Assembly: GCA_005503065.1 (NCBI GenBank)
Contig: SCOE01000005.1
Location: 62,001 to 126,000, forward strand
Length of the DNA: 64,000 bases
Reading direction: 5' to 3'
DNA from: Comamonadaceae bacterium ALPHA2B
GTDB taxonomy: Bacteria; Pseudomonadota; Gammaproteobacteria; Burkholderiales; Burkholderiaceae_C
Position numbers and translations under genes: made by a program. Numbering within the stretch: the first letter of the stretch is position 1; each line of letters starts with the position of its first letter. This document shows positions 9,423 to 37,233 of this stretch, piece by piece. Below the pieces are notes generated by a model. It was not told where the DNA came from. It saw only the letters and a list, made by a program, of their open reading frames with translations, and did no database searches.

Positions 9423-10166
9423 ATGGCAGCCTTGTTTGCGGACACCAACAAGTACGACGATGGAGAGGGCCCCCCCATCGTTGAGGCGTATCACAGCGCG
9501 ATCAAAGATCTAATCCGACGCCGACTCGACGAGCGCAAGTGCTCCTGGGCCGACTTCGTCTTCGACGCGAGTTATGAGTTGCTCACGGCCGACGACATGC
9601 GCGCGATCGAGGCCCAGGTGCTTGAAAGCGGCTATCGCTTCACCAGCTCCGCCATGATCTCCGCGCTTGAACGGCCTGAGGCCTATCTGCCGATCCCAGG
9701 CAGCGAGGGCAATCCGGACGAATTCTCATTTCAGCATTCGGAGGCCCGCACTGCTGCTGCCGACGCACAGGGCCGTGAGCTCTGCGGTCAAGGCGACAAC
9801 GTCGTGGAGTACGACAGCAACGTGACCGGAACTGCGCGCTACTTTCGCTCAATAAAGGATGTGGCAGACGCGCTTGCAGACGGCGTGGCGCCGAACACCA
9901 TCGCAGTGATTGACGACAGCGGCGGCACGCTGACGGCGCCAATCCTGGAGCAGTTCGCTGGGGTCATCTGCGCGGGTGGCACGGTCCGTTCTCACCTTGG
10001 CATCCTGACCCGTGAGTACGGCATTCCCTGCCTCATGAACTCCAAGGTTGCTGGCATCCGCAACGGTGACCGTGTGGAGCTCGAGGTGAGCGGACACGCG
10101 AAGACGACAGAGGCTTATCAGACCAACACGGAAATGTCCGTGCGTGTCTGGAAGCTGCCCCGTTGA
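9423..10166 (+). CDS. PEP-utilising-enzyme swivel (phosphohistidine) domain protein
   Basis: A 247-aa protein, first gene of the cargo operon, with a GAGGAGA ribosome site. Residues about 130-225 form a mobile phosphohistidine domain as in PEP synthase and phenylphosphate synthase: IAVIDDSGGTL, then CAGGTVRSHLGILTREYGIP, with the likely phospho-acceptor H191 and the usual IPCLMN ending. The first 120 residues are not recognised. Unlike full dikinases it has no ATP-grasp, which is supplied four genes downstream. It may carry phosphate to or from the substrate as a separate swivel subunit. The domain call is firm; the role is inferred. Confidence 0.7.
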   Translation: MAALFADTNKYDDGEGPPIVEAYHSAIKDLIRRRLDERKCSWADFVFDASYELLTADDMRAIEAQVLESGYRFTSSAMISALERPEAYLPIPGSEGNPDEFSFQHSEARTAAADAQGRELCGQGDNVVEYDSNVTGTARYFRSIKDVADALADGVAPNTIAVIDDSGGTLTAPILEQFAGVICAGGTVRSHLGILTREYGIPCLMNSKVAGIRNGDRVELEVSGHAKTTEAYQTNTEMSVRVWKLPR

Positions 10167-10201
10167 TTGTTGGTCGACTACCACCCAAAGCAGGAGAAGT
10201 C

Positions 10202-11764
10202 ATGCCGCGCCCGAACCTCAACTACACCCAGATTCTCGAAACCAACAACATCATGCGAGCTGCAGGGGAAGAGACGTACTTCCTCGGCGTGACGCGCACG
10301 GTGCAGGAGTCCAAGTTCTTCCCCGTGTCCGCGTATGTCATGCTGGGATACCTGAACGCGTTCTATCGCTACCCGGCATTGCTGCGCAAGATCGAAAAGC
10401 ACATGTCGCCGGAAGACATTGCCGATCGCATCCGGAACTGCACCACCAAGCTGGAGTCGATGGGAATCAACTGGTGCATGATCAACTTCTATCTGCTAGG
10501 CCGCGAGATGCTGATCAACATGGGTGTTATCCGGCCTCACGATGCAGCCGAGGATCTCGCTTATGTGCTCAGCTTCTGGCGCCGCTTCCAACTCGCGCGG
10601 CGCCGCGAAGATGGCCACCTGACCTGCAAGGAGGCAGGGCACCGCTCGCAGATCCTTCCTGAGCGACGGATCCAGGTTTATCACGCAGACCTCCATCCCT
10701 GCACCGCAGGTGACGAGTTGCATACCGCCACCGACCAGTTCCTCGCAGCCCTGTCCCAGTACGCCGTCCTCGTGGCCTGCGAAAGCCGCGTTTGCATGAC
10801 CAATCACGGACCCTACAACTTGGGCGAGGGCCGTGAAATGCTTGTGCGAGATTTCTTCGACCTGGCCGAAGGCGACATGCCCTGGCTCGACGGAATCGCC
10901 GCAGATGTGCCGTACTCACGTTTGACGGTAACGACAGCTGTGAAGGATACCCACTTCTACATCGTTGACGACTGGGGTAGCTTCGAGTCCAAGCCGGAGT
11001 ACAAGGCCGACAATCTTTGCGGGGTGGGCCTGTATACCTCCGATGAGCTGTCTGAGACGCAGATTCCGGTGGGCATGGGAAGCAAGGAAGAGCTAACCAA
11101 GACCCTGCAGAACCTGACGGAAATCTTCAAGGACACCACCGCGAAGCTCTGGAAGCGCCTCGCCAGCTATCACCGCGAACAGTTGATGGATGCGGGCGCA
11201 CTGACGTATTACAACATCATCAAGGACTTCGCCCACGTCGCCGGCTGCTATGAGGCCGACGACTGGAACAAGATCGACGAACGCGCTGACCGATTCCGCC
11301 CGCTGCTCAACGACGAGTATGGCAATCAGATCCTCGGCGCACTGTTCGTGCCGCTTTCGTGCCCCAGCCACCAGGTCAGCCCTTACGTGATGATGCAGCA
11401 CTCCAACCTGCCCAAGCGTACGTACTCGCCGATTTCTGCCGCTGCAAGCTTCGACGAGGAGTGCGTGCCCAGCGTGGGCGATCGAATTTACCCGGGTGTG
11501 ACCTACCTTCCTGAGAAGGTCGACAAGTACCGCACGACCCAGGGCGACATGACTCTTGAAGAGCTCAATCAGCGCTGCAAACAGTTCGTGCCAAAGCTGT
11601 GCACAGAGCCTTACCGGCACCTGGACGACACGTGGGTCAAGTATCACTACGACACCCCGCTAGCGGACGAGCTCTACAAGCTAGAGCAGCAAAGTTCGCG
11701 CAAACTGAAAGGAAAGGGCGCTGGCCTCGCGCGCTCAGACATCAACGCACTCGCCGACAGGTAA
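10202..11764 (+). CDS. Unrecognised 520-aa protein of the carboxylation cluster
   Basis: Start at 10202 chosen for the AGGAGA site seven bases upstream; a TTG at 10163 would overlap the previous gene. I do not recognise the family. It appears soluble, with no signal peptide or membrane segment, is cysteine-rich, and has His/Asp-dense stretches such as QVYHADLHPCTAGDELHTAT near residue 160-180 and PLSCPSHQVSPYVMMQHSN near 395. It sits between two phosphohistidine proteins that both lack a dikinase substrate domain, so it may be the separate substrate-binding or catalytic subunit. That placement is the only functional evidence. Confidence 0.6.
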   Translation: MPRPNLNYTQILETNNIMRAAGEETYFLGVTRTVQESKFFPVSAYVMLGYLNAFYRYPALLRKIEKHMSPEDIADRIRNCTTKLESMGINWCMINFYLLGREMLINMGVIRPHDAAEDLAYVLSFWRRFQLARRREDGHLTCKEAGHRSQILPERRIQVYHADLHPCTAGDELHTATDQFLAALSQYAVLVACESRVCMTNHGPYNLGEGREMLVRDFFDLAEGDMPWLDGIAADVPYSRLTVTTAVKDTHFYIVDDWGSFESKPEYKADNLCGVGLYTSDELSETQIPVGMGSKEELTKTLQNLTEIFKDTTAKLWKRLASYHREQLMDAGALTYYNIIKDFAHVAGCYEADDWNKIDERADRFRPLLNDEYGNQILGALFVPLSCPSHQVSPYVMMQHSNLPKRTYSPISAAASFDEECVPSVGDRIYPGVTYLPEKVDKYRTTQGDMTLEELNQRCKQFVPKLCTEPYRHLDDTWVKYHYDTPLADELYKLEQQSSRKLKGKGAGLARSDINALADR

Positions 11765-11768
11765 GTAC

Positions 11769-12374
11769 ATGAACGCAGAACAGCATCTGGTCCTTCACGG
11801 ACTAGCCATTAAGAAGTACGCCTTGCCCGACGCGATCGCATCGCTGCTTGGTCTGCCTGAAGAGCGTGTGAAGGCGATCCTGGAGGAGGGGGCGGCGAAG
11901 GGAACCGTGATGGATGTTGGCGGCAAATATGCCGTCTCACCTACCGCACGCGTATCGCTTCGCTCGAACTACGGCCGCTTCTACTCATCGCTGAGAAGCA
12001 GCCAGGAGTTCAGGGAAGCCCACCTGGCTTTCGAAAAAGTGAACATCGATCTGAAGGCGCTCATCACCGATTGGCAGACCCTCAAGGTCGGCGGGAAGCT
12101 GGTGCCAAACGACCACAGTGATGAGGGGTACGACGAGCAGATCCTCAAGCGTCTGGCCAAGCTACACGTCAACGCGGAAAAGGCGCTGAACGCGCTTACT
12201 GCGGTACTTCCTCGAATGGGGATTTACCTGCAGAAGCTAGAGGAGGCGCTGGACAAGGCTGAAGACGGTGATATCGCGTGGGTCAGCGATGCGAAGACCG
12301 AGAGTTATCACACTGTCTGGTTCGAACTGCACGAAGACCTGCTCTGCCTGCTGGGTGAACAGCGTAAGGAATAG
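11769..12374 (+). CDS. Conserved helical protein of the dikinase/carboxylase cluster
   Basis: A 201-aa protein four bases after the previous stop and three bases before the dikinase gene. Residues about 8-60 resemble a small winged-helix domain (LPDAIASLLGLPEERVKAIL and KYAVSPTARVSLRSN). The rest is helical and ends with YHTVWFELHEDLLCLLGEQR, a block I associate with uncharacterised proteins beside PPDK-like genes in other bacteria, from memory. No catalytic motif is visible. It could be a structural or regulatory subunit of the phosphotransferase; function unknown. Confidence 0.6.
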   Translation: MNAEQHLVLHGLAIKKYALPDAIASLLGLPEERVKAILEEGAAKGTVMDVGGKYAVSPTARVSLRSNYGRFYSSLRSSQEFREAHLAFEKVNIDLKALITDWQTLKVGGKLVPNDHSDEGYDEQILKRLAKLHVNAEKALNALTAVLPRMGIYLQKLEEALDKAEDGDIAWVSDAKTESYHTVWFELHEDLLCLLGEQRKE

Positions 12375-12377
12375 GCA

Positions 12378-14135
12378 ATGCTTAGTTCGAAGGAAACGAC
12401 CTCCACGCTTCTCTTGACTGGTGAGTGCGTGCCGGACCGGTCACTGATAGGTGGCAAGGCTTGGTCCATTGCCAACATGATGAGTCTGGGCTTGCGGGTG
12501 CCACCGGCTTTTGTGATCACGACGATTTCGAATGCGCGCTATGAGAAAGAGGGGGAACTTTGGCCGTCGCTCCTTGGAGACATTGAATCGGGAGTTCGCC
12601 ATCTGGAGGCACAGAGCCGGCGCACATTTGGCGGCGGCAATAGGCCCTTGTTGCTTTCCGTACGCTCCGGCGCCGCTGTCTCGATGCCGGGAATGATGGA
12701 TACCGTCCTTAACCTGGGCATCAACGACGAGACCAAAGCTGCCCTGGCGCTGGAGTGTGGTGATGCAGAGTTCGCGGAAGACACGCATCGGCGTTTTCTT
12801 CAGCTCTTTGCGAGCATCGTGCTGAAGGTGGACGTTGATGAGGAAGCTGCATCAACCGCTGACACGATCCGAGCAGCCTTGGCGCGCGACGGTCATCCGA
12901 TGCCAACCGATCCGTACGAACAGCTCCACGCCGCAGTGGAAGCCGTTTTTCAGTCGTGGAACTCGCGCCGTGCCAAGCGTTACCGAGAGCATCATGGCAT
13001 TCCGCACGACCTGGGGACGGCAGTCACCGTCCAGGCCATGGTGTTCGGAAATCTCAATGAAAGGTCCGGCACCGGGGTGCTCTTCAGCCGCAACCCGTTG
13101 TCAGGCTCCCCGGAGCCTTTCGGTGAGTTCTTGCTGAAGGCGCAGGGTGAAGACGTGGTTTCGGGCCGCTTCACGCCCCAACCGCTGGACGCGATGCGCC
13201 AGTCCCTACCTGAGGCACATCAAGGGCTTCTTCAAGCGTCCCGCGCACTTGAGGACGCCGGCGCCGAGGTTCAAGACATCGAGTTCACAGTGGAAGATGG
13301 CCAACTCTTCATCCTGCAGTCACGCTCGGCCAAACTGGCTCCGCTGGCAGCTGCGCGCACCAGTGTGGACCTAGTGGATGAAGGGCGCATCTCTCCGGAA
13401 GCGGCGCTGAAGAGGATCTCGTCTGATCGCCTTCGTCAGCTGCTCGCTCCTACTCTGAGTGAAAGTGTCACTGCTGAGCTGGCTCCGGTGGCCCGTGGTG
13501 AAGGCGCGTGCCCAGGCGTAGGCATCGGCTTGGTTGTCACAGATTCTGATGAGGCTGAAGCGCGGATTCGTCGGGGCGAGCGCGTGGTTCTTGCCCGGCC
13601 GAACACCAGCCCCAATGATCTCCATGGAATGATCGGTGCGGCAGCCGTCATCACTGAAGAGGGAGGTAGCACTTCTCATGCCGCGGTGGTCAGCCGGGCA
13701 TTGGGCGTTCCCTGTGTCGTGGGTTGCGGCGCGGGTGCACTCTCAGCGCTGGCTGGGTCCACGGTGACCGTGGACGGCCAAGGCGGGTTTGTCTTCGATC
13801 GCGAGTTGCCGGTCGAGCGGCCCGATGAGTCTCGTGATCCTGTTCTTGGGCGCCTGTTGTCCTGGGCAAAGGAACGTGCTGCGCTGCGTGTGGTGCGGCC
13901 GGCCGAGGTGGCGCAGTTGTCGGTCCTGGATTTGGGCGTCGACGAAGAAGGCTGTGATGCGGCCACGATCGACCGTGCGCTCGCACGAATTCTGCCGACA
14001 GGGACCTTCAAAGGGGCCAAGGGTGGCGCGATTGCTACCGACGCTGGTGTCCAGGCCGCCTTGCGGCATGGACTCGAGTTCATCGTCGCGGACCCCGTGC
14101 TACCGCCACTGCTCGCTGCCGCCAACGCGCGGTGA
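12378..14135 (+). CDS. Truncated pyruvate phosphate dikinase-like enzyme
   Basis: A 585-aa protein with the first two domains of a dikinase. The N-terminal ATP-grasp contains SLIGGKAWSIANMMSLGLRV near residues 22-41 and the PPDK hallmark SVRSGAAVSMPGMMDTVLNL from residue 94. A swivel domain follows with EEGGSTSHAAVVSRALGVPC, where H434 should be phosphorylated. PPDK (about 870 aa) and PEP synthase have a C-terminal PEP-binding barrel; here only about 110 unrelated residues follow. It therefore should take phosphate from ATP but needs another protein for the acceptor, as in multi-subunit phenylphosphate synthase. Neighbours supply a second swivel domain and a carboxylase. Confidence 0.75.
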   Translation: MLSSKETTSTLLLTGECVPDRSLIGGKAWSIANMMSLGLRVPPAFVITTISNARYEKEGELWPSLLGDIESGVRHLEAQSRRTFGGGNRPLLLSVRSGAAVSMPGMMDTVLNLGINDETKAALALECGDAEFAEDTHRRFLQLFASIVLKVDVDEEAASTADTIRAALARDGHPMPTDPYEQLHAAVEAVFQSWNSRRAKRYREHHGIPHDLGTAVTVQAMVFGNLNERSGTGVLFSRNPLSGSPEPFGEFLLKAQGEDVVSGRFTPQPLDAMRQSLPEAHQGLLQASRALEDAGAEVQDIEFTVEDGQLFILQSRSAKLAPLAAARTSVDLVDEGRISPEAALKRISSDRLRQLLAPTLSESVTAELAPVARGEGACPGVGIGLVVTDSDEAEARIRRGERVVLARPNTSPNDLHGMIGAAAVITEEGGSTSHAAVVSRALGVPCVVGCGAGALSALAGSTVTVDGQGGFVFDRELPVERPDESRDPVLGRLLSWAKERAALRVVRPAEVAQLSVLDLGVDEEGCDAATIDRALARILPTGTFKGAKGGAIATDAGVQAALRHGLEFIVADPVLPPLLAAANAR

Positions 14136-14217
14136 GCTCGCTTCAAACCAGGCTGGCTATCCGCCCTTGACGGCGCGGAAGGACAGCTGTTCTCTTCACC
14201 ATTATCAAGGAATATCT

Positions 14218-14760
14218 GTGTTAACCATCAAGCCCCAAGACGTCGCAGCACTCGTAGAGGCGTTCGAGCGAAGCTCCGCGCAAGATATGCGCATCGCAGC
14301 GGGAAGTTTCGAGCTGCAATTGTCCAAGAACGCCACAGGTGCACAGTCGTGGGCTCGCCGCTCGGGTGCGCACGAAGCAAGCGCGGCAGTCGTCGTTGCT
14401 CCACCTTCTGCTCCTGTCTCATCGCAGCTCGCGCCTGCTCCTGCCACTGTGCCCAAGGGCGAAAAGGCGGAAGCAGCAGGCAAACAACTTGCGGTGAGTT
14501 CGCAGCCTCCGGCCGGTCATGTGTTCGTGCGCGCCGCCAACCTCGGCACCTTCTACAGGTCACCGAAACCAGGTGCTCCCAGCTACGTCGAAGTCGGCGG
14601 CCGGGTATCCGGTGATACCGAAGTCTGTCTGATCGAGGTGATGAAGCTCTTCACGCCTTTGATCGCCGGCGTGCAAGGCGTCGTGCGCGAGGTCTATGTG
14701 ACAGACGGGGCACTGGTCGAGTTCGACCAGCCGCTGTTCTTGATTGAAGTCGATGCCTGA
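14218..14760 (+). CDS. Biotin carboxyl carrier protein
   Basis: A 180-aa AccB-type carrier. GTG at 14218 is preceded by AAGGA; the frame is open further upstream but that overlaps the dikinase gene. The N-terminal helix (IKPQDVAALVEAFERSS) and FELQLSK resemble AccB, an Ala/Pro-rich linker spans about residues 55-95, and the biotinyl domain ends the protein with EVMKLFTPL, biotin acceptor K143, where AccB usually has EAMKM. It would shuttle carboxybiotin between the biotin carboxylase and carboxyltransferase encoded next. The chromosome presumably has its own accB; this copy looks pathway-specific. Confidence 0.85.
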   Translation: MLTIKPQDVAALVEAFERSSAQDMRIAAGSFELQLSKNATGAQSWARRSGAHEASAAVVVAPPSAPVSSQLAPAPATVPKGEKAEAAGKQLAVSSQPPAGHVFVRAANLGTFYRSPKPGAPSYVEVGGRVSGDTEVCLIEVMKLFTPLIAGVQGVVREVYVTDGALVEFDQPLFLIEVDA

Positions 14761-14774
14761 CAGGCTGACCAGCT

Positions 14775-16139
14775 GTGATCCATCGACTATTCATTGCCAA
14801 TCGCGGCGAGATCGCTTTGCGTGCGGTGCGCGCTGCTCGCTCGCTGGGAGTCGAGTCCGTACTCGCGGTTTCCGCGGCAGATCGCGAGAGTCTGGCAGCT
14901 GAAGAGGCCGACATGGTCGTCGTTGTGGGCCCAGCGCCTGCCCGCCAGTCCTACCTCAACAGTGCAGGTCTCGTTCACGCTGCGAAGGCCAGTGGCTGCG
15001 ACGCCCTCCACCCCGGCTACGGCTTCCTTTCGGAGCGGGCATCCTTTGCCAAGCTCTGTGAAGAAGAAGGAATCATCTTCGTGGGTCCTCGCTCAGAGAC
15101 CATCGAGGCAGTGGGCGACAAGCTTGCGGCAAGGCGGCTAGCTTCCGCTGCGGGCATTCCGATGGTCACTGGGACCGGAAAGGTTTCCTCAACCGACGAG
15201 GCGCTCGCCATCGCTGCGCAGATTGGCTACCCGGTCATCACCAAGGCGTCTGCCGGAGGTGGCGGACGCGGCATGCGCGTGGCGCGAAGCGCCGCAGACC
15301 TGCAGGAATCGTTCGACCGGTCGTCCCAGGAGGCACTCGAAGCTTTCGGCGACGGGACGCTATACCTTGAGCGGTTTGTGGAGCGAGCCCGACACGTCGA
15401 GGTGCAGGTCATGGGCGATGGCTCAGGAGAAATTCTCCACTTCGGGGAGCGAGACTGCACTTTGCAGCGGCGCTACCAGAAGATGATGGAGGAGGCACCG
15501 GCCATTGCTCTTTCCGATGCGACGCGCAAGCGAGTGCACCAAGCGGCGATCGATCTGTTGAAGCCGCTGAACTATCGCAACGCCGGTACTGTCGAGTTTC
15601 TTTTCGACCCGGATCGCGATGAGTTCTATTTCATGGAAGTCAATGCACGAATTCAAGTGGAGCATCCGGTCTCGGAAATGCTTTGCGGTGTCGATCTGGT
15701 GCAGTTGCAGCTTCGCGTGGCTTCCGAGGGGAAGCTGCCGCTCAAGCAGTCTGACATCCAATTCAACGGACACGCCATCGAGCTGCGAATTCTCGCCGAG
15801 GACCCGAAGCGCGACTTCCTCCCATGCCCGGGGCGCCTGAGCGAATGGCAGTTCGATCTCGGCGATGCGGGTGTGCGACTGGACAGCGCCATGCGAGTGG
15901 GCACGCTGATTCCTCCTTACTACGACAGCATGATCGGAAAGCTGCTGGTTCACGGTTCAGACCGTGGAGCGGCACTGAACAAGATTAACTCCGTGCTCAA
16001 TGCAGCCAAGGTCGCAGGCATTCGTAGCAATCTCGACTTGCTTTGCTTCCTGTCTGCCCATGGGGACGTGCTTTCGAACGACTTCGACACCCGCTGGGCC
16101 GAGCGGGTCCTGATGCCTCAATTTCTTCAAGCGAACTGA
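14775..16139 (+). CDS. Biotin carboxylase (AccC-like)
   Basis: A 454-aa biotin carboxylase, GTG start (IHRLFIANRGEIALRAVRAA), full family length. ATP-grasp motifs are present: KASAGGGGRGMR at about residues 157-168, HVEVQVMGDGSGEILHFGER near 205 and EVNARIQVEHPVSE near 288. It carboxylates the biotin on the preceding carrier with bicarbonate and ATP. It is 14 bp behind the carrier gene and 10 bp ahead of a carboxyltransferase-like gene, so the three probably form one enzyme distinct from acetyl-CoA carboxylase. Confidence 0.88.
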   Translation: MIHRLFIANRGEIALRAVRAARSLGVESVLAVSAADRESLAAEEADMVVVVGPAPARQSYLNSAGLVHAAKASGCDALHPGYGFLSERASFAKLCEEEGIIFVGPRSETIEAVGDKLAARRLASAAGIPMVTGTGKVSSTDEALAIAAQIGYPVITKASAGGGGRGMRVARSAADLQESFDRSSQEALEAFGDGTLYLERFVERARHVEVQVMGDGSGEILHFGERDCTLQRRYQKMMEEAPAIALSDATRKRVHQAAIDLLKPLNYRNAGTVEFLFDPDRDEFYFMEVNARIQVEHPVSEMLCGVDLVQLQLRVASEGKLPLKQSDIQFNGHAIELRILAEDPKRDFLPCPGRLSEWQFDLGDAGVRLDSAMRVGTLIPPYYDSMIGKLLVHGSDRGAALNKINSVLNAAKVAGIRSNLDLLCFLSAHGDVLSNDFDTRWAERVLMPQFLQAN

Positions 16140-16149
16140 TCTACTAGCC

Positions 16150-17613
16150 ATGGCACACATTCAAATTCTCGACACCACTATCCGTGACGGCCAGCAAGCT
16201 CTCTGGGGTATGCGAATGAAGGCGGGGATGGCCTTGCCCGTCGCGCCGATCATCGACAAGACAGGCTATTGCGTGATTGACACGACCGCTTCGTCTCTGT
16301 TCGAAGTGCTCGTTCGCAGTTGCCAAGAGAATCCTTGGGAGGGCCTGGATGCGCTGGTGGAAGCGATGCCGCGCACCCCCAAGCGCGCAGGCATGCGCTC
16401 TAACGCCGCCGTGACCTTCTCCATCACGCCTGACGCTCTGATGGATGCGTGGATGCGTCAGTTAAATGCCCATGGCCTTCGCAGCTTCTGGGTCTATGAC
16501 GTGCTTTTCAACATCGACAAGATGCTGAGGCTCGCGAAGGTGGCCAAGGAGTTCGGGTCCACGTGCGCAGGCGCTTTGATGTTCACGCTGTCACCCGTGC
16601 ACACCGATGCCTACTACGCCGACAAGGCGCAGAAGCTTGCCGCTTCCGACGACATTGATTCGATCCTGATCTACGATACGGCCGGTGTACTGGAGAAGGA
16701 ACGGCTCAGTACGCTGATTCCTGCGATTTTGGCTGTGTCGCGCGGCAAGCCCATCGAACTGCATGCAAACAACATCCTTGGCCAGTCCGGCAAGGCCTAT
16801 CTCGACGCCGTGGATCTCGGCGTAACTATTCTCCATACGTCCTCGCGGCCTCTGGCGAACGGTCCAGCCGTGCCCTCCGTGCAGATGTTTGCGCACAACC
16901 TAGAAGTCATGGGCCACACCCATGACTTGAACCTGGACCTGCTTGACCCTGTGGCGAAGCACTTCGAACGCGTGGGACGCGCCGCAGGGTATTTGATCAA
17001 CCAGAACAACGAGTACGACGTGCTTGCCGTCAAGCACCAGATCCCGGGTGGGATGGTTGGCACGTTGAAGGCCAACCTGGCCACTCACCGCATGGAGCAC
17101 CGGCTGGACGAAGTGCTCCGCGAGACCGCTATTGTGCGCCGTGAGCTGGCCTACCCAGGCATGGCCACACCGTTCAGCCAGATCGTGGGCATCCAGGCAG
17201 TGCTGAACATCGTGACCGGTAAGCGCTATTCGATCGTTTCGGATGAGGTCATTGCGTATGCCGCGGGGCATTACGGGGAGATGGTTGCACCTATCGAGCC
17301 CAACGTCCTCGACATGATCATGTCCAACGCGCGTGCCAAACACGTGGTGGCGAATCCGCCGGAGCAGCCCACGATTCAAGAGCTGCGCAAGCGGCATGGC
17401 ACAGAGGACGACGACGAACTGCTACTGCGGGCACTGGTTCCGGAGGCCGATCTCGAGCGGATGCGTGCAGCGGGTCCGCTGCGTCGGGACTACCCAATGT
17501 TCTCCAGTCCGGAGCTGGAGGAAGTGGCGCGTCTCATCCGGACCACGAAGCTGCCCAGCGCCCAAATTCGCATGGGTGAGGTCGAGCTCGAACTTTTCGG
17601 AGCAAAAGCATGA
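16150..17613 (+). CDS. Carboxyltransferase, pyruvate carboxylase/OadA-like, variant metal site
   Basis: A 487-aa DRE-TIM barrel protein with a PC/OadA-type C-terminal extension. DTTIRDGQQALWGMRM at residues 8-23 corresponds to the DTTxRDAHQSL region of pyruvate and oxaloacetate carboxyltransferases and supplies the metal aspartate (D13). Two usual metal ligands differ. In ILIYDTAGV, Y175 stands where the carbamylated lysine of IKDMAGL normally lies. In IELHANNILG the HxH pair reads H205-A-N207. The fold is kept, so the acceptor is probably not pyruvate. It overlaps surE by four bases. The alignment is by eye. Confidence 0.75.
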   Translation: MAHIQILDTTIRDGQQALWGMRMKAGMALPVAPIIDKTGYCVIDTTASSLFEVLVRSCQENPWEGLDALVEAMPRTPKRAGMRSNAAVTFSITPDALMDAWMRQLNAHGLRSFWVYDVLFNIDKMLRLAKVAKEFGSTCAGALMFTLSPVHTDAYYADKAQKLAASDDIDSILIYDTAGVLEKERLSTLIPAILAVSRGKPIELHANNILGQSGKAYLDAVDLGVTILHTSSRPLANGPAVPSVQMFAHNLEVMGHTHDLNLDLLDPVAKHFERVGRAAGYLINQNNEYDVLAVKHQIPGGMVGTLKANLATHRMEHRLDEVLRETAIVRRELAYPGMATPFSQIVGIQAVLNIVTGKRYSIVSDEVIAYAAGHYGEMVAPIEPNVLDMIMSNARAKHVVANPPEQPTIQELRKRHGTEDDDELLLRALVPEADLERMRAAGPLRRDYPMFSSPELEEVARLIRTTKLPSAQIRMGEVELELFGAKA

Positions 17614-18401
17614 GCGCCGATCAACTGACTGCGCTGACGCGACGCATCCTGATCGTCAACGACGATGGAGTGCAATCTCGAGGGATTGCCTTGCTTGAAC
17701 GTGCGGCGCGTACTTTCGGTGGCGAAGTCATCGTCATCGCGCCCGACGAAGAGCGCTCGGGCGCAGGCCAGTCGATTTCGCTGTCGGTCCCGTTGCGTGT
17801 TCGTCAGATCGAACCCAATCGATTCGCAGTGAAAGGCTCGCCCGCGGACTGCGTCATGCTCGCAATTCGCGAGTTGCTCAAGGACGGGCCACCCACGCTG
17901 GTGTTGTCCGGTGTCAACCACGGCGAGAACTTGGCTGACGATCTGGCCTATTCGGGCACCTCTGGTGCGGCCATGGAGGCGTCCCAATTCGGCATTCCCG
18001 CGATTGCGTTCAGTCAGGTGCGCGAGCTAGGCCAGATGCCCAGTTTTGACGTGGCAGAAAAGCACATTGAGGAGGTTCTCACCAAGTTGCTGGCAGCGCC
18101 ATGGCGAGAGGGCTTGGTGTTCAACGTGAACTTTCCAGCCGTTCCCGGTGGAGAGATCACGGGCATTGAAATGGTGCCCGTCGGACGCCGAGTTCGGCGC
18201 CCGTTCTTTCCGATCGCGGGCAAGGATGGGCGCAACATCCCTTACTACTGGGTGGGTGTGGACTATGCCCACGAAGTCGAGGCCACGCCAGGCACAGACC
18301 TCGCGTCTGTGCGAAAACGCGCGATCTCGGTAACTCCTCTGCGCAGAGACCCGACCGACGATTACATGTTGGACCAACTCGAGCATTTCTTTAAATCATG
18401 A
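17610..18401 (+). CDS. SurE-family 5'-nucleotidase/phosphatase
   Basis: A 263-aa SurE protein of normal length. Metal and active-site motifs are intact: ILIVNDDG (D18, D19), the serine in EERSGAGQS, SGVNHGENLADD with N103, and YSGTSGAA. SurE enzymes remove phosphate from nucleoside monophosphates and some other phosphomonoesters. ATGA overlaps on both sides couple it to the carboxyltransferase and the beta-keto acid cleavage enzyme, unlike housekeeping surE, which usually lies near pcm, nlpD and rpoS. It may hydrolyse a phosphorylated intermediate, or AMP released by the dikinase-like step; both are inferences. Confidence 0.85.
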   Translation: MSADQLTALTRRILIVNDDGVQSRGIALLERAARTFGGEVIVIAPDEERSGAGQSISLSVPLRVRQIEPNRFAVKGSPADCVMLAIRELLKDGPPTLVLSGVNHGENLADDLAYSGTSGAAMEASQFGIPAIAFSQVRELGQMPSFDVAEKHIEEVLTKLLAAPWREGLVFNVNFPAVPGGEITGIEMVPVGRRVRRPFFPIAGKDGRNIPYYWVGVDYAHEVEATPGTDLASVRKRAISVTPLRRDPTDDYMLDQLEHFFKS

Positions 18402-19339
18402 GCAAGCCATCTCGGCCCAAGGCCATCATCACCTGCGCCGTGACGGGCGCCGTGCATACCCCGTCAATGTCAGCGGCTCTGCCTGTCACCCCGCAGGAAA
18501 TTGTGGCGTCCAGTCTGGAAGCCGCCGAAGCGGGTGCCGCAGTCATCCATTTGCATGCCCGCAATCCGGTCGACGGTCGGCCGACCCCTGACCCGGATGT
18601 ATTCATGCAGTTTCTGCCCGAAATTCACGCTCGTTCAGACGCTGTGATCAATATCACGACCGGCGGCAGTACGCGCATGACTTTGGAAGACCGACTCGCA
18701 GCACCGTTGCGCGTGAAGCCGGAACTGTGCTCACTCAACCTTGGGTCCATGAATTTCGTGTTCTCGCAGATGGCGCAGAAGTACGACTCATGGAAGCATG
18801 GCTGGGAAAAAGATTACGTCGAGGGGAGCGACGACGTGATCTTCTGCAACACGTTCAGGGACATCGAGAAGATCATTCGTTTGCTGGGACATCAGCATGG
18901 GGCTCGGTTCGAATTCGAATGCTACGACGTCGGGCATCTCTACGCGCTGGCGGACTTTGCGCAGCGACAGATCGCGAAACCCCCGTTCTTCGTGCAAATG
19001 ATCTTCGGTGTCAGAGGCGGTATCGGCGCCGACGCATCGCACCTCACTCACATGAAAGACACTGCTGACAAGCTGTTCGGCAGCGACTATGTATTCTCAG
19101 TGATGGCGGCGGGGCGACATCAGATTCCCTTCGCGACCCAAAGTGCCACCATGGGCGGCAGCGTCCGAGTCGGCCTTGAAGATAGTCTATTCATTGCACG
19201 GCGTACCTTGGCGGAGTCCAACGCGCAGCAGGTGAGAAAGATCAAGCACCTGCTGGACGAGCTTGGTGTAGAGGTCGCCACACCAGCAGATGTCCGCAAG
19301 ATGCTTCAGCTCAAAGGACGAAGCAATGTGGGCTTTTGA
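18398..19339 (+). CDS. Beta-keto acid cleavage enzyme (BKACE, DUF849)
   Basis: A 313-aa member of the family of 3-keto-5-aminohexanoate cleavage enzyme. The opening ITCAVTGAVHTPSMSAALPV, zinc motif HLHAR (H51, H53) and ECYDVGHLYALADF are typical. Family enzymes condense a beta-keto acid with acetyl-CoA, giving acetoacetate and a new acyl-CoA. Last gene of the operon, overlapping surE by ATGA. As a ketone carboxylated at its methyl carbon is a beta-keto acid, this is the natural next step after the carboxylase genes. The specific substrate cannot be read from sequence. Confidence 0.85.
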   Translation: MSKPSRPKAIITCAVTGAVHTPSMSAALPVTPQEIVASSLEAAEAGAAVIHLHARNPVDGRPTPDPDVFMQFLPEIHARSDAVINITTGGSTRMTLEDRLAAPLRVKPELCSLNLGSMNFVFSQMAQKYDSWKHGWEKDYVEGSDDVIFCNTFRDIEKIIRLLGHQHGARFEFECYDVGHLYALADFAQRQIAKPPFFVQMIFGVRGGIGADASHLTHMKDTADKLFGSDYVFSVMAAGRHQIPFATQSATMGGSVRVGLEDSLFIARRTLAESNAQQVRKIKHLLDELGVEVATPADVRKMLQLKGRSNVGF

Positions 19340-19380
19340 ACGAGGTGCCAGACGCTTGGTTGCTCGTAGCCGCAAATTGT

Positions 19381-20397
19381 CTAGTCGTCTTGGGTCTCCC
19401 ATTCAGCGCCTGTGTCAGTCTCGACGGCGCGAACGATTTCGTCCTCCATGGCCTTCGCTTCCGGCGTCTGATTCCTTTCCCTTAGCCGCGCAAGGTAGAG
19501 CGTGCGACTCAACGCTGGCTTAAGCGGCTTTGCGACGAACTCTCCCGAGTCGAGTTGTCTCGTGCAAGCCATGTTTGGCAGGATCGCGCAACCCAGCCCC
19601 TGAGAGATCATCGTCCTCATCAGAGACACACTGTCCATCCTAATCATGGGTTCAATTTCAATGTTGCCGTCTTGCAGGTATCTCTCAATGACGAACCGAG
19701 TGCCATGCACTGCAGCAGGAAGCAGAAGATCAGAAATAGCTTGCAGTCGCCCGCGTTCGATCAACGCTTCGCCAGCAAGCGCATGATCATGACGCATCGT
19801 GAGATAGAGGTGCTCAGTAACGATTTTTCGCGTCGCGATCTTCTGCGAGTTCGGGTTGTGCAGCACCACCGCAAGATCTACGGCTGCGTCGGCCAGATAC
19901 TGATGCACATGTCCACTCGAAGCCTCAAGCACAGTGAGCTTTGTGTTGGGGTACTTCTGCGAGAACTGCTGGATCACCTTTGGGAAGTAGCGGCTGGAGA
20001 ACGGGCGCGGAGCGGCGATCGTGACTCGGCCACGCACACCGCCCCGGGCCATGGTGATCTGTTCACGCGCGCTTTCCATCTCCCGAATGATCCGTTCAGC
20101 TTGCGCGAGCAGAAGTTCGCCTGCGTGGGTAAGCGTGACGCCACGGCTTTCCCTAAGCAGCAAGGGGGCGCCCAGCTCCTCCTCGAGCAACTGAATCTGA
20201 CGGCTCAATGTGGACTGCGCAAGATCCAGGGCAGCTTCAGCCGCAGTGAAGCTGCCCATCTTCGCCACTTGAGAAAAGTAGAACAGCCGCCGGCTGTCGA
20301 TGAGGTGTTGAGCAACTCGTTCGCCGAGGGCACTGCGTTTGCTGCGCGTGCTGGAGCCGCGCTCTTTAGGGGGGGGATCGCTTTCTCCAGAATTCAT
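19381..20397 (-). CDS. LysR-type transcriptional regulator of the cargo operon
   Basis: A 338-aa LysR protein, convergent with the operon. After a 33-residue basic extension, the winged helix reads LFYFSQVAKMGSFTAAEAAL, then LDLAQSTLSRQIQLLEEELG; the rest is the ligand-binding domain, with RGRVTIAAPRPFSSRYFPKV at its start and DSVSLMRTMISQGLGCAILP near residue 270. It probably activates the operon from the palindrome at 9305-9321 and may act on the divergent substrate-binding gene at 20505. Base composition matches the operon rather than the ICE backbone, so it likely travelled with it. Confidence 0.85.
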   Translation of the reverse strand: MNSGESDPPPKERGSSTRSKRSALGERVAQHLIDSRRLFYFSQVAKMGSFTAAEAALDLAQSTLSRQIQLLEEELGAPLLLRESRGVTLTHAGELLLAQAERIIREMESAREQITMARGGVRGRVTIAAPRPFSSRYFPKVIQQFSQKYPNTKLTVLEASSGHVHQYLADAAVDLAVVLHNPNSQKIATRKIVTEHLYLTMRHDHALAGEALIERGRLQAISDLLLPAAVHGTRFVIERYLQDGNIEIEPMIRMDSVSLMRTMISQGLGCAILPNMACTRQLDSGEFVAKPLKPALSRTLYLARLRERNQTPEAKAMEDEIVRAVETDTGAEWETQDD

Positions 20398-20504
20398 TTC
20401 TTTGAGCTGGCACGTAAGTGGAAGCCGGCTAAGAGATGCTCGTCGGAGAGATCAGCTCAGCGCCTGTACGGCCGCAGTTTATCGAACAGTTTGGAAGGTC
20501 ATCT

Positions 20505-21824
20505 ATGCAGGCTAGTCCCAGTTTGAATACGCCTTCCGCGCCGGAGCCGCCAGTGGCTGTGCAGCGCCGAAGTGTACTGTGGGCCGCCGGAGCGCTTCTT
20601 TGTGGCCGTTCTGCCCTGGCGCTTTCTGCACAAGCGAATGATCCCATCCGTCTAGCGCTGGTCGAAAGCCTCAGCGGCCCGTTCGCCAACACGGGCGAGG
20701 CGGTCTTCCGCAACCTGCTGTGGGCGGTGGAGCGCGTCAATGCGCGCGGCGGCATTGCCCTGCCCGGCGGCGCGCGGCCGCTGCAACTGGAGCGCTACGA
20801 CAGCAAGGGCCAGAACGACGAGGCGCTGTCGGCCATGCGCGCGGCGCTGGACGGCGGCGCGCTGGCCGTACTGCAGGGCAATTCCTCGGCCACGGCCGCG
20901 GCCCTGCTCGATGGCCTGGCCAAGCACAACGAGCGCAACGGCTCGCGCCAGGCGCTGTACCTCAACTACTCGGCCGTGGATCCGGTGCTGACCAATGAGC
21001 GCTGCAGCTTCTGGCACTTCCGCTTCGATGCCCATGCCGACATGCGCGTGACGGCGCTGATGGATGTGCTCAGGGACGACCGAGAGGTGCAGGCGGCCTA
21101 CCTGATCGGCCAGGACTACAGCTTCGGCCAGGCCGTGCTGCGCGAAACGAAGCGGCAGTTGGGCCTGCGGCGGCCCGACGTGCGCATCGTGGGGGAGGAA
21201 CTACACCCCATGGGCCGCGTGAAGGACTTCGCGCCCTATGCGGTGAAGATCAAGGCCAGCGGCGCGCAGGCCGTGATCACGGGCAACTGGGGCAACGACC
21301 TCACGCTGTTGGTGAAGGCCGCGCGCGAGGTCGGCTTCGACGGTAAATTTTATACCTTCTACGGCAATGCGCTGGGCGCTCCTGCGGCGCTGGGCGAGGC
21401 GGGCGTCGGCAAGGTGATTGCCGTGGCCGACTGGTTGCCCAACGTGCCCACGCCGGAGTCCGCCGAGTTCTACCGCGCCTTTCGCGCACGCTTCCCGAAC
21501 CCGGCTGAAGACTATGTGCACATGCGCATGCAACTGCTGATCGAGGCGCTGGCCCGGGCGGTGGCCGAAGCACGCAGCACCGAGGCTGTGGCGGTGGCCC
21601 GCAAACTGGAGCAGGCGCGCGTGAGCCTGGCGGGCCGCAGCGGCCACATGCGGGCCGCCGACCACCAGTTCCAACAGTCGCTGGTGGTGGGCGTGATGGA
21701 CCGCCAGGGCACGCCCGGCGTGCCTTTCGACGTCGAAGGCTCGGGCTATGGCTTTCGCGTGATCAAGGACATCGCGCCGGCGCTGGCGGAGATGCCGCAC
21801 TACTGTCGGATGGCAAGGCCTTAA
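20505..21824 (+). CDS. ABC transporter substrate-binding protein (LivJ-type), orphan
   Basis: A 439-aa periplasmic-binding protein of the branched-chain amino acid type. ATG 20505 follows GGAAGG. The N-terminus carries RRSVLWAAGALL and then ALSAQA, which fits a twin-arginine-type signal peptide; the mature part starts near DPIRLALVESLSGPFANTGE. Members bind amino acids, amides, aromatic acids or related compounds. No permease or ATPase genes accompany it, so it must share another transporter or act as a sensor. It is divergent from the LysR gene. GC rises steadily from the 5' end into the body of the gene. Confidence 0.8.
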   Translation: MQASPSLNTPSAPEPPVAVQRRSVLWAAGALLCGRSALALSAQANDPIRLALVESLSGPFANTGEAVFRNLLWAVERVNARGGIALPGGARPLQLERYDSKGQNDEALSAMRAALDGGALAVLQGNSSATAAALLDGLAKHNERNGSRQALYLNYSAVDPVLTNERCSFWHFRFDAHADMRVTALMDVLRDDREVQAAYLIGQDYSFGQAVLRETKRQLGLRRPDVRIVGEELHPMGRVKDFAPYAVKIKASGAQAVITGNWGNDLTLLVKAAREVGFDGKFYTFYGNALGAPAALGEAGVGKVIAVADWLPNVPTPESAEFYRAFRARFPNPAEDYVHMRMQLLIEALARAVAEARSTEAVAVARKLEQARVSLAGRSGHMRAADHQFQQSLVVGVMDRQGTPGVPFDVEGSGYGFRVIKDIAPALAEMPHYCRMARP

Positions 21825-36516: not shown

Positions 36517-37233
36517 ATGATCTCGCCCGTCTCTCCCGCGCTTCCCCTGCATGTGGTCATCACCGGCGCGGCCGGTGCGCTCGGCCGTGCCGTCACGCAG
36601 CATTACCTGGACGCTGGCGCGCGGCTTGCGCTGCTCGAGCGCCATCCCGAACACCTGACGCAGGCCTTCCCCGGCCTCGACAACTCGCAGCACCTGCTGC
36701 TGGCCGCCGACGTCACCTCGGCCGACTCCGTGAAGGCGGCCGGCGAGCAGATCCTGCGCGCCTTCGGGCATGTCGATGCCGTCATCCACATCGCGGGCGG
36801 CTTCGAGATGGGGCCGGCCGTGCACGAGCTCGACCGCGCGGCGTGGGACCGCATGCTGAACCTCAACGCCTGGTCCTTCGTCGCCGTGTCGCAGGCCTTC
36901 GTGCCGGCCATGGTCGCGCGCGGCGCCGGCGCGCTGGTGGCCGTGACGGCCAAGTCGGCGAGCCGCGGCGTGGCGCACATGGCGGCGTATTGCGCATCGA
37001 AGAGCGCGCTGCAGCGCCTGGTCGAGAGCCTGGCGGCCGAAGTCGCGCCGCACGGCGTGCAGGTCAACAGCATCGCGCCCAGCGTGCTCGACACGCCGGC
37101 CAACCGCCAGGCCATGCCCGATGCCGATCCGAAGGAATGGGTGTCCACCGTCGTGGCGGCCAAATCCATCGCATATCTTGCGAGCGAGGGCGCGGCGGCG
37201 TTGCATGGCCAGCACCTGGTGCTGGACGCCTGA
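36517..37233 (+). CDS. SDR-family oxidoreductase
   Basis: A 238-aa short-chain dehydrogenase. The cofactor motif VVITGAAGALGRAV (TGxxxGxG) lies at about residues 12-25, ADVTSADS follows, and the catalytic YxxxK is in MAAYCASKSALQRL. The C-terminal GQHLVLDA is typical. The start at 36517 is the first ATG before the Rossmann strand, though no strong ribosome site is seen. Substrate unknown. Confidence 0.8.
   Translation: MISPVSPALPLHVVITGAAGALGRAVTQHYLDAGARLALLERHPEHLTQAFPGLDNSQHLLLAADVTSADSVKAAGEQILRAFGHVDAVIHIAGGFEMGPAVHELDRAAWDRMLNLNAWSFVAVSQAFVPAMVARGAGALVAVTAKSASRGVAHMAAYCASKSALQRLVESLAAEVAPHGVQVNSIAPSVLDTPANRQAMPDADPKEWVSTVVAAKSIAYLASEGAAALHGQHLVLDA

Follow-up and report, generated by a model that had tools for sequence, protein, structure and literature searches.

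A nine-gene operon with a split dikinase and a variant carboxyltransferase as a candidate system for phosphate-assisted ketone carboxylation

What might nine co-directional genes do that join a phosphotransfer module to a biotin carboxylase, a phosphatase, and a beta-keto acid cleavage enzyme? The genes, here designated g1 to g9 from 5' to 3', occupy positions 9423 to 19339, all on the plus strand, of a 64,000-nucleotide (nt) stretch (the window) of contig SCOE01000005.1 of Comamonadaceae bacterium ALPHA2B. We consider it fairly probable that they encode a phosphate-assisted, biotin-dependent ketone carboxylation that resembles the Hpe/Acv pathway but departs from it in its kinase and in active-site residues of its carboxyltransferase. 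The principle of the pathway is already known from Hpe/Acv; the kinase type and the carboxyltransferase set this variant apart.

The nine genes and the proposed pathway

The order and positions of the genes were confirmed with the list of open reading frames (ORFs) of the window, and domains were assigned with Pfam and NCBIfam profiles; genes of the other loci were positioned by tblastn. From g1 to g9, the intergenic gaps are 35, 4, 3, ~82, 14, 10, -4, and -4 nt. The nine co-directional genes and the family identities given in an initial annotation of this DNA agree with these results. Rough dN/dS ratios against an Acidovorax relative (locus L003), computable for seven genes, were 0.018 to 0.217, with dS exceeding 1 in each of the seven and reaching saturation in g3 and g9; the lowest of the seven was that of g7 (0.018).

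From the gene identities, the synteny, a fusion of kinase parts, exchanges of phosphatase and cleavage genes, and active-site substitutions, we infer the following reactions and substrate. The dikinase g4 (12378..14135; 585 amino acids [aa]) would transfer phosphate from ATP to the histidine of one or both swivels, namely, the swivel of g4 itself and g1 (9423..10166; 247 aa), a stand-alone phosphohistidine swivel protein. From there the phosphate would pass to a substrate hydroxyl, the substrate being a hydroxyketone or an enolised diketone bound by g2 (10202..11764; 520 aa), the putative substrate-binding component of the kinase, with g3 (11769..12374; 201 aa) as a putative accessory component of the module. 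The biotin carboxylase g6 (14775..16139; 454 aa, GTG start) would carboxylate the biotin on the carrier protein g5 (14218..14760; ~180 aa with an EVMKL motif, from a probable GTG start), and the variant carboxyltransferase g7 (16150..17613) would transfer the CO2 to the carbon adjoining the ketone, giving a phospho-beta-keto acid. Masking of an acidic or electron-donating hydroxyl may ease deprotonation of that carbon. The SurE-family phosphatase g8 (17610..18401) would take the phosphate off, and the beta-keto acid cleavage enzyme (BKACE) g9 (18398..19339) would perform an exchange with acetyl-CoA to yield an acyl-CoA and acetoacetate.

The carboxylase and downstream genes were assigned by matches to the biotinyl domain for g5 (PF00364, E = 5.5e-14, computed on the reading frame from 14155), to Biotin_carb_N, Biotin_carb_C, and CPSase_L_D2 for g6, to PYC_OADA for g7 (E = 1.3e-21; a match to the HMGL-like family was below threshold, at 22.7 versus 29 bits), to PF01975 for g8 (E = 3.9e-55), and to PF05853, the family of triacetate acetoacetate-lyase and its relatives, for g9 (E = 1.5e-98; 329.9 bits against a cut-off of 24.8). 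No other PF05853 match is present in the genome, and this g9 is linked to a carboxylase operon.

The sequence of phosphorylation, carboxylation, and dephosphorylation is supported by the precedent of Hpe, as described in parts of PMC9618137 and PMC12167813. According to passages of the former (Dexter et al. 2022), HpeHI phosphorylates 4-hydroxyacetophenone and acetovanillone, the biotin enzyme HpeCBA carboxylates only the phosphorylated ketones, with about one ATP each, HpeD dephosphorylates the carboxylated product, and HpeE and HpeF are proposed to yield benzoate. HpeHI is presented as a dikinase with parts that resemble rifampin phosphotransferase in excerpts of Dexter et al. (2025; PMC12167813), and three Hpe variants are compared in excerpts of Lalande et al. 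(2026; PMC13101465). The operon shares with hpeHICBADEF of Rhodococcus rhodochrous GD02 and acvABCDEF of Sphingobium SYK-6 a small-molecule kinase, a homologous three-part biotin carboxylase, a phosphatase, and beta-keto acid cleavage, and it would follow the same order of steps. It differs in that g1 to g4 stand in for HpeHI, SurE for the HAD-family phosphatase HpeD (a HAD protein is found in the Hpe-type locus L019), and BKACE for the CoA synthetase HpeE and the hydrolase HpeF. Neither SurE nor BKACE is mentioned in the text of PMC9618137, its supplementary files and synteny figure aside, and BKACE is likewise absent from the text of PMC13101465.

Among the papers listed in searches of the open-licence PMC literature, none but the Hpe/Acv work followed the logic of the pathway, and no experiment on these nine proteins was found. 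The principle itself, which the initial annotation had regarded as undescribed, must be credited to Hpe/Acv, which already works in this way with a homologous carboxylase (as described in parts of PMC9618137). The difference in gene set from acetone and acetophenone carboxylases that it had noted does hold: neither family is among the Pfam matches of the nine genes. Acetone and acetophenone carboxylases have hydantoinase-type subunits and resemble the proposed system in function, that is, in ATP-dependent ketone carboxylation.

Conservation of the gene order

The nine-gene set is rare. Among 398 genomes drawn from the phylum, g2 was found in one, the window's own genome; among 399 genomes of the family it was found in nine, comprising the window's own genome, genome G524 (at 90%), and seven others at 25% to 28% over part of the protein. 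Matches to g2 were present in nine of 72,556 plasmid records, and in three the match covered at least 80% of the query. Of 293 genomes in the order to which genome G791 belongs, one had a close g7 (E ≤ 1e-150), namely, the Nocardioides genome found already. G524 (L024 and L044) was treated as the same record as L003 and counted once, and L041 as the same as the Methylibium plasmid locus L014.

Close g2 relatives (at least 47% identity) are present in 12 loci: the window, L002 to L009, L010, L011, and L013. The order g1 to g9 is identical in Acidovorax sp. MR-S7 (L003), Nocardioides sp. Soil797 (L008), and Actinomycetospora sp. NBRC 106375 (L009), and because it is thus conserved in three other genomes and across two phyla, chance assembly of the nine genes can be rejected. 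Genes g1 to g8 are found in Tsuneonella litorea (L006), in a Rhodocyclaceae metagenome-assembled genome (L007), and, rearranged, in Novosphingobium resinovorum plasmid pSA1 (L011), and g1 to g7 in two Rhodococcus plasmids (L010 and L013). Locus L002 stops inside g6, L005 stops 35 bp past g2, and L004 has g1 and g2 only, with none of g3 to g9 in its remaining 1.2 kb. The kinase genes g1 to g4 and the biotin genes g5 and g6 lie in one locus in 10 of the 12 cases (L004 and L005 are the exceptions; L011 is rearranged). Homologous clusters that always sit with unrelated pathways, which the initial annotation had named as evidence against its proposal, were not seen among the close homologues.

Counts of carboxyltransferases, phosphatases, and cleavage enzymes refer to the loci that reach g7, which leaves out L002, L004, and L005. 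A phosphatase is present in all nine, SurE in seven and a member of the tyrosine-phosphatase family in two. The cleavage genes are BKACE in four loci, a CoA ligase plus a thiolase in four, and neither in the stretch of L006, which sits among transposase-like genes (judged by eye). This distribution is the pattern expected if the steps were kept and the enzymes exchanged.

The kinase module and the carboxyltransferase

The swivel protein g1 matched PF00391 (E = 1.9e-7), and its His191, in the motif TVRSHLG, is invariant in all 10 aligned sequences; g1 also matched the swivel profile of HpeH (probability, 93.5%). For g2, which starts with ATG at 10202 and has AGGAG upstream, neither Pfam nor NCBIfam gave a family at E ≤ 1, the PDB gave no significant sequence match (best E, 0.054), and a profile comparison gave no significant likeness to the substrate domain of HpeH (probability, 0.9%). 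An AlphaFold model of g2 from a nine-row alignment had a mean predicted local distance difference test (pLDDT) score of 43.6 and was set aside as unusable. No Pfam or NCBIfam family was above the cut-off for g3 either (a single Pfam match was sub-threshold); 42 of its columns are invariant among 10 aligned sequences, and its relative in L014 is annotated as MarR family. The three proteins are tied together by a 793-aa protein of Rhodococcus opacus B4 (L012), in which swivel-like (g1), g2-like, and g3-like parts follow one another in this order at 24% to 31% identity.

The lineage of the kinase is indicated by g4. Only PPDK_N and PEP-utilizers matched it above the Pfam cut-offs, with one other match sub-threshold and none to the phosphoenolpyruvate (PEP)/pyruvate barrel, so that g4 shares the ATP-grasp and swivel domains of pyruvate phosphate dikinase (PPDK) but not its barrel match. 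It scored 664 bits with NF004531 and 484 bits with the PPDK model TIGR01828 versus 110 bits with the PEP synthase model TIGR01418, and it matched maize PPDK (PDB 1vbg) at E = 3.5e-109; its counterpart in L010 scored 494 bits with the PPDK model versus 147 bits with the PEP synthase model. All four HpeI/PpsB/CreI-like proteins tested lacked a PPDK match at E = 1e-20 and scored 305 to 402 bits with the PEP synthase model. These scores place the kinase in a lineage separate from HpeHI, and g4 carries a second swivel. Like HpeHI, CreHI, PpsAB, and rifampin phosphotransferase, the module combines an ATP-grasp domain, a phosphohistidine swivel, and a separate substrate part, but its swivel, 520-aa, and 201-aa parts are encoded by separate genes, g4 adds the second swivel, and the ATP-grasp domain is of the PPDK type. 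The swivel is moreover N-terminal in the L012 fusion and C-terminal in HpeH, to which the 520-aa part is not detectably related. Nine genomes compared that have a close g2 all show swivel-only HpeH matches; near-full-length HpeH-like matches, three in number, were found only in genome G792, on contigs other than that of g2 or with no established link to g2.

Modules distantly related to g1, g2, and g3 were also observed near aldehyde dehydrogenase-like genes in L039 (genome G441, contig C29), L040 (G579, C2), and L042 (G586, C1). Near those of L039 and L042, there are bacterial microcompartment shell genes (confirmed with Pfam), and a kinase-dependent microcompartment is possible. In Methylibium petroleiphilum plasmid RPME01 (L014) and in L043, a distant g1/g2/g3 module lies a few kb from B12-binding, AMP-binding, and MeaB genes, which we take to be a 2-hydroxyisobutyryl-CoA mutase set. 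A second swivel plus g2-like module (27% to 29% identity) is located immediately upstream of the main cluster in L010 (8905 to 13275) and L013 (5311 to 10105).

The three-part biotin carboxylase, g5 to g7, is homologous to that of the Hpe-type loci L019 and L032. In PDB alignments, which are ungapped around both motifs, and in a residue table, g7 keeps Asp13 and His205; compared with the Vibrio-type oxaloacetate decarboxylase 2nx9 and other PDB chains, it has Tyr175 in the place of a lysine and Asn207 in that of the second histidine of the His-x-His motif. The aligned Asp, Lys, and His-x-His residues are presumably those of the metal site in the carboxyltransferases of oxaloacetate decarboxylase and pyruvate carboxylase, and g7 keeps two of these four. 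Among 21 carboxyltransferases compared, Tyr and Asn occupy the two positions in all seven members of the window clade, Glu and His in L010, L013, and L020, and Lys and His in all 11 others, namely, five of the Hpe type (L016, L017, L019, L032, and L057), four with no kinase gene seen nearby, and two oxaloacetate decarboxylases. In the tree of these 21 rows, the 10 with Tyr or Glu form one clade (100/99) and the five of the Hpe type a separate clade (100/100). Both fall, together with the long-branched L060, into a group of 16 rows (91/90, midpoint root); g7 groups with the Hpe-type carboxyltransferases, apart from the oxaloacetate decarboxylases, though not necessarily in a strict sister clade. 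There was no g2 match on the plasmid of L020, nor was a kinase gene seen in its stretch; loss of the lysine is thus not strictly tied to the split kinase.

Related sets of carboxyltransferase, carrier, and carboxylase genes with no kinase annotated in the stretch were seen in Cnuibacter (L059), Arthrobacter (L058), Caballeronia (L018), and Sulfitobacter (L060), and the set in L059 is adjoined by BioY, 3-oxoacid CoA-transferase, and thiolase genes. These sets are perhaps kinase-free ketone carboxylases. Sphingomonas bisphenolicum plasmid pBAR1 (L016) and a plasmid of Pseudomonas putida YC-AE1 (L017) have an Hpe-type carboxylase and, at the position of HpeHI, a UPF0261/Tm-1-like ATP-binding protein (identified by Pfam in L016 and by annotation in L017), which is possibly a third type of kinase for such ketones.

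Flanking genes, substrate, and alternative explanations

Directly after g9, a divergent gene for a LysR protein (19381..20397, minus strand; ORF list and Pfam) is predicted to encode the regulator of the operon. Relatives with 49% to 80% identity were found in the fetched stretches of all three other BKACE-type loci and in none of the five other loci reaching g7. The following gene (20436..21824, plus strand, from the first of several possible starts) encodes a periplasmic substrate-binding protein (Peripla_BP_6), possibly an uptake component, with a relative at the same position in L003 (75% identity over residues 71 to 375, where the L003 stretch ends). Biotin synthase (BioB) or BioY genes are present in the stretches of three of the nine loci (L006, L009, and L011). 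The flanks of the operon encode a DUF3363 protein, with a Relaxase match slightly under the cut-off (24.2 versus 24.6), a TraG-like coupling protein, and TrbB-like and TrbE-like ATPases. Relaxase-like, coupling, and mating-pair genes on the flanks make a conjugative element likely, in line with the integrative and conjugative element proposed initially; the operon is likely carried by this element, and the set is probably mobile. The G+C content of the operon (0.599) is below that of the conjugation-gene stretches on its left (0.705) and right (0.683), as expected for acquired cargo; that of window positions 36517 to 64000 is 0.697.

Which ketone would be carboxylated? The phosphatase in all nine loci reaching g7 suggests that a separate hydroxyl is phosphorylated and not the enol of the ketone itself, since the phosphatase would be needless if a phosphate on that enol left during carboxylation. 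The order of steps first annotated is probably right in outline, as shown for the homologous Hpe system, but a separate hydroxyl is a more probable phosphate acceptor than the "ketone or enol" that was named. Two CoA-transferase (PF01144) genes directly past the BKACE gene of L008 are consistent with the formation of acetoacetate. In the BKACE family, activity has precedent both on 3,5-dioxohexanoate (PMC10470551) and on 4-hydroxybenzoylacetate (PMC4922564), which supports a cleavage step of this kind. Acyl-CoA dehydrogenase or enoyl-CoA hydratase genes near L003, L007, L008, L010, and L013 (Pfam or annotation) and L011 (by eye) lean weakly to an aliphatic product, but the flanks may be unrelated, and a 4-hydroxyphenylacetate 3-hydroxylase-like gene in the L013 stretch leans the other way; flanking genes are only suggestive as a guide to the substrate. 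A more far-reaching reading, which we consider less likely than not, is a second, differently built system in which a four-protein, two-swivel dikinase with the 520-aa substrate protein would activate a non-phenolic ketone (an acetylacetone-like diketone or an aliphatic hydroxyketone) and in which a carboxyltransferase lacking two metal-site residues would skip the usual metal-assisted enolisation.

Several observations weigh against phosphate-assisted carboxylation of a ketone by this operon. The 520-aa protein appears unrelated to the substrate domain of HpeH, and its role is read from gene order and from one fusion of low identity. The dikinase g4 could serve another purpose, and PPDK-like genes stand beside the distant g1-to-g3 modules of L039 and L040 in carboxylase-free stretches; g1 and g2 also occur with no g3 in what remains of L004. 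Having lost two metal-site residues, g7 could prove unable to perform ordinary ketone enolisation. SurE and BKACE fix no substrate because both families are broad, and the stretch of the BKACE-type locus L009 breaks off within the first part of a CoA-ligase-like gene.

It is possible, though doubtful, that the operon acts on 4-hydroxyacetophenone or acetovanillone and is simply the Hpe pathway with some parts exchanged, in which a phenol would be phosphorylated and BKACE would convert 4-hydroxybenzoylacetate to 4-hydroxybenzoyl-CoA and acetoacetate. The homologous carboxylase, the BKACE-family gene that also accompanies the carboxylase locus of S. bisphenolicum pBAR1, and the hydroxylase-like gene of the L013 stretch are consistent with this. 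Passages of PMC4922564 likewise report, for the BKACE group with hydrophobic or uncharged substrates, cases of activity on sixteen substrates including 4-hydroxybenzoylacetate, and activity on the latter in two cases in group G1 and one each in G2 and G6. However, the kinase appears unrelated to HpeH beyond the swivel, its ATP-grasp protein being of the PPDK type and all four HpeI/PpsB/CreI-like proteins tested of the PEP synthase type, and the residues of g7 differ from those of all five rows in the Hpe-type clade. The acyl-CoA dehydrogenase and enoyl-CoA hydratase neighbours, if related, are more typical of aliphatic acyl-CoA products, and R. oxybenzonivorans pRB98 has the split kinase type and, at another place, a P450 gene with an HpeH-like kinase next to it.

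The version of the initial annotation, in which the ketone's own enol is phosphorylated and the enol phosphate carboxylated, is unlikely; a special case of it is acetylacetone converted to 3,5-dioxohexanoate. Acetylacetone has a stable enol, a vinylogous acid, and the product would be the named substrate of NF053538 ("3,5-dioxohexanoate:acetyl-CoA acetone transferase"), a family label with an inferred activity, with which g9 scores 494 bits against a cut-off of 430. The BKACE proteins of all four BKACE-type loci pass this cut-off (492 to 511 bits), and the pBAR1 relative (L016) scores 140 bits; a BKACE relative that cleaves 3,5-dioxohexanoate is described in passages of PMC10470551. Loss of the metal-site residues might also be tolerable with a pre-activated or unusually acidic substrate. 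However, a dedicated phosphatase would have no use if carboxylation released the phosphate, except with a diketone, where the phosphate masks a second carbonyl; NF053538 is named for a family that may be broad; and nothing that ties the operon directly to acetylacetone was found. Least probable is a loose assembly on a mobile element in which the kinase and the carboxylase work independently, for example with g4 supplying PEP or pyruvate and the carboxylase being of the oxaloacetate or pyruvate type: the closeness of g4 to PPDK, the distant likeness of g7 to pyruvate carboxylase subunit B, and the probable conjugative element would agree with this, but a PEP-barrel match is missing from g4, two of the four residues that align to the metal site of the pyruvate and oxaloacetate enzymes are replaced in g7, the gene order is conserved across two phyla, and the kinase parts are fused in L012.

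If the proposed phosphate-assisted ketone carboxylation is correct, phosphorylation before biotin-dependent carboxylation would be a broader route for opening ketones and not a peculiarity of lignin-derived phenols. The family of the 520-aa protein would be recognised as a component of small-molecule kinases, and the way in which biotin enzymes activate ketones could be tested directly on a carboxyltransferase that lacks two residues of the usual metal site.

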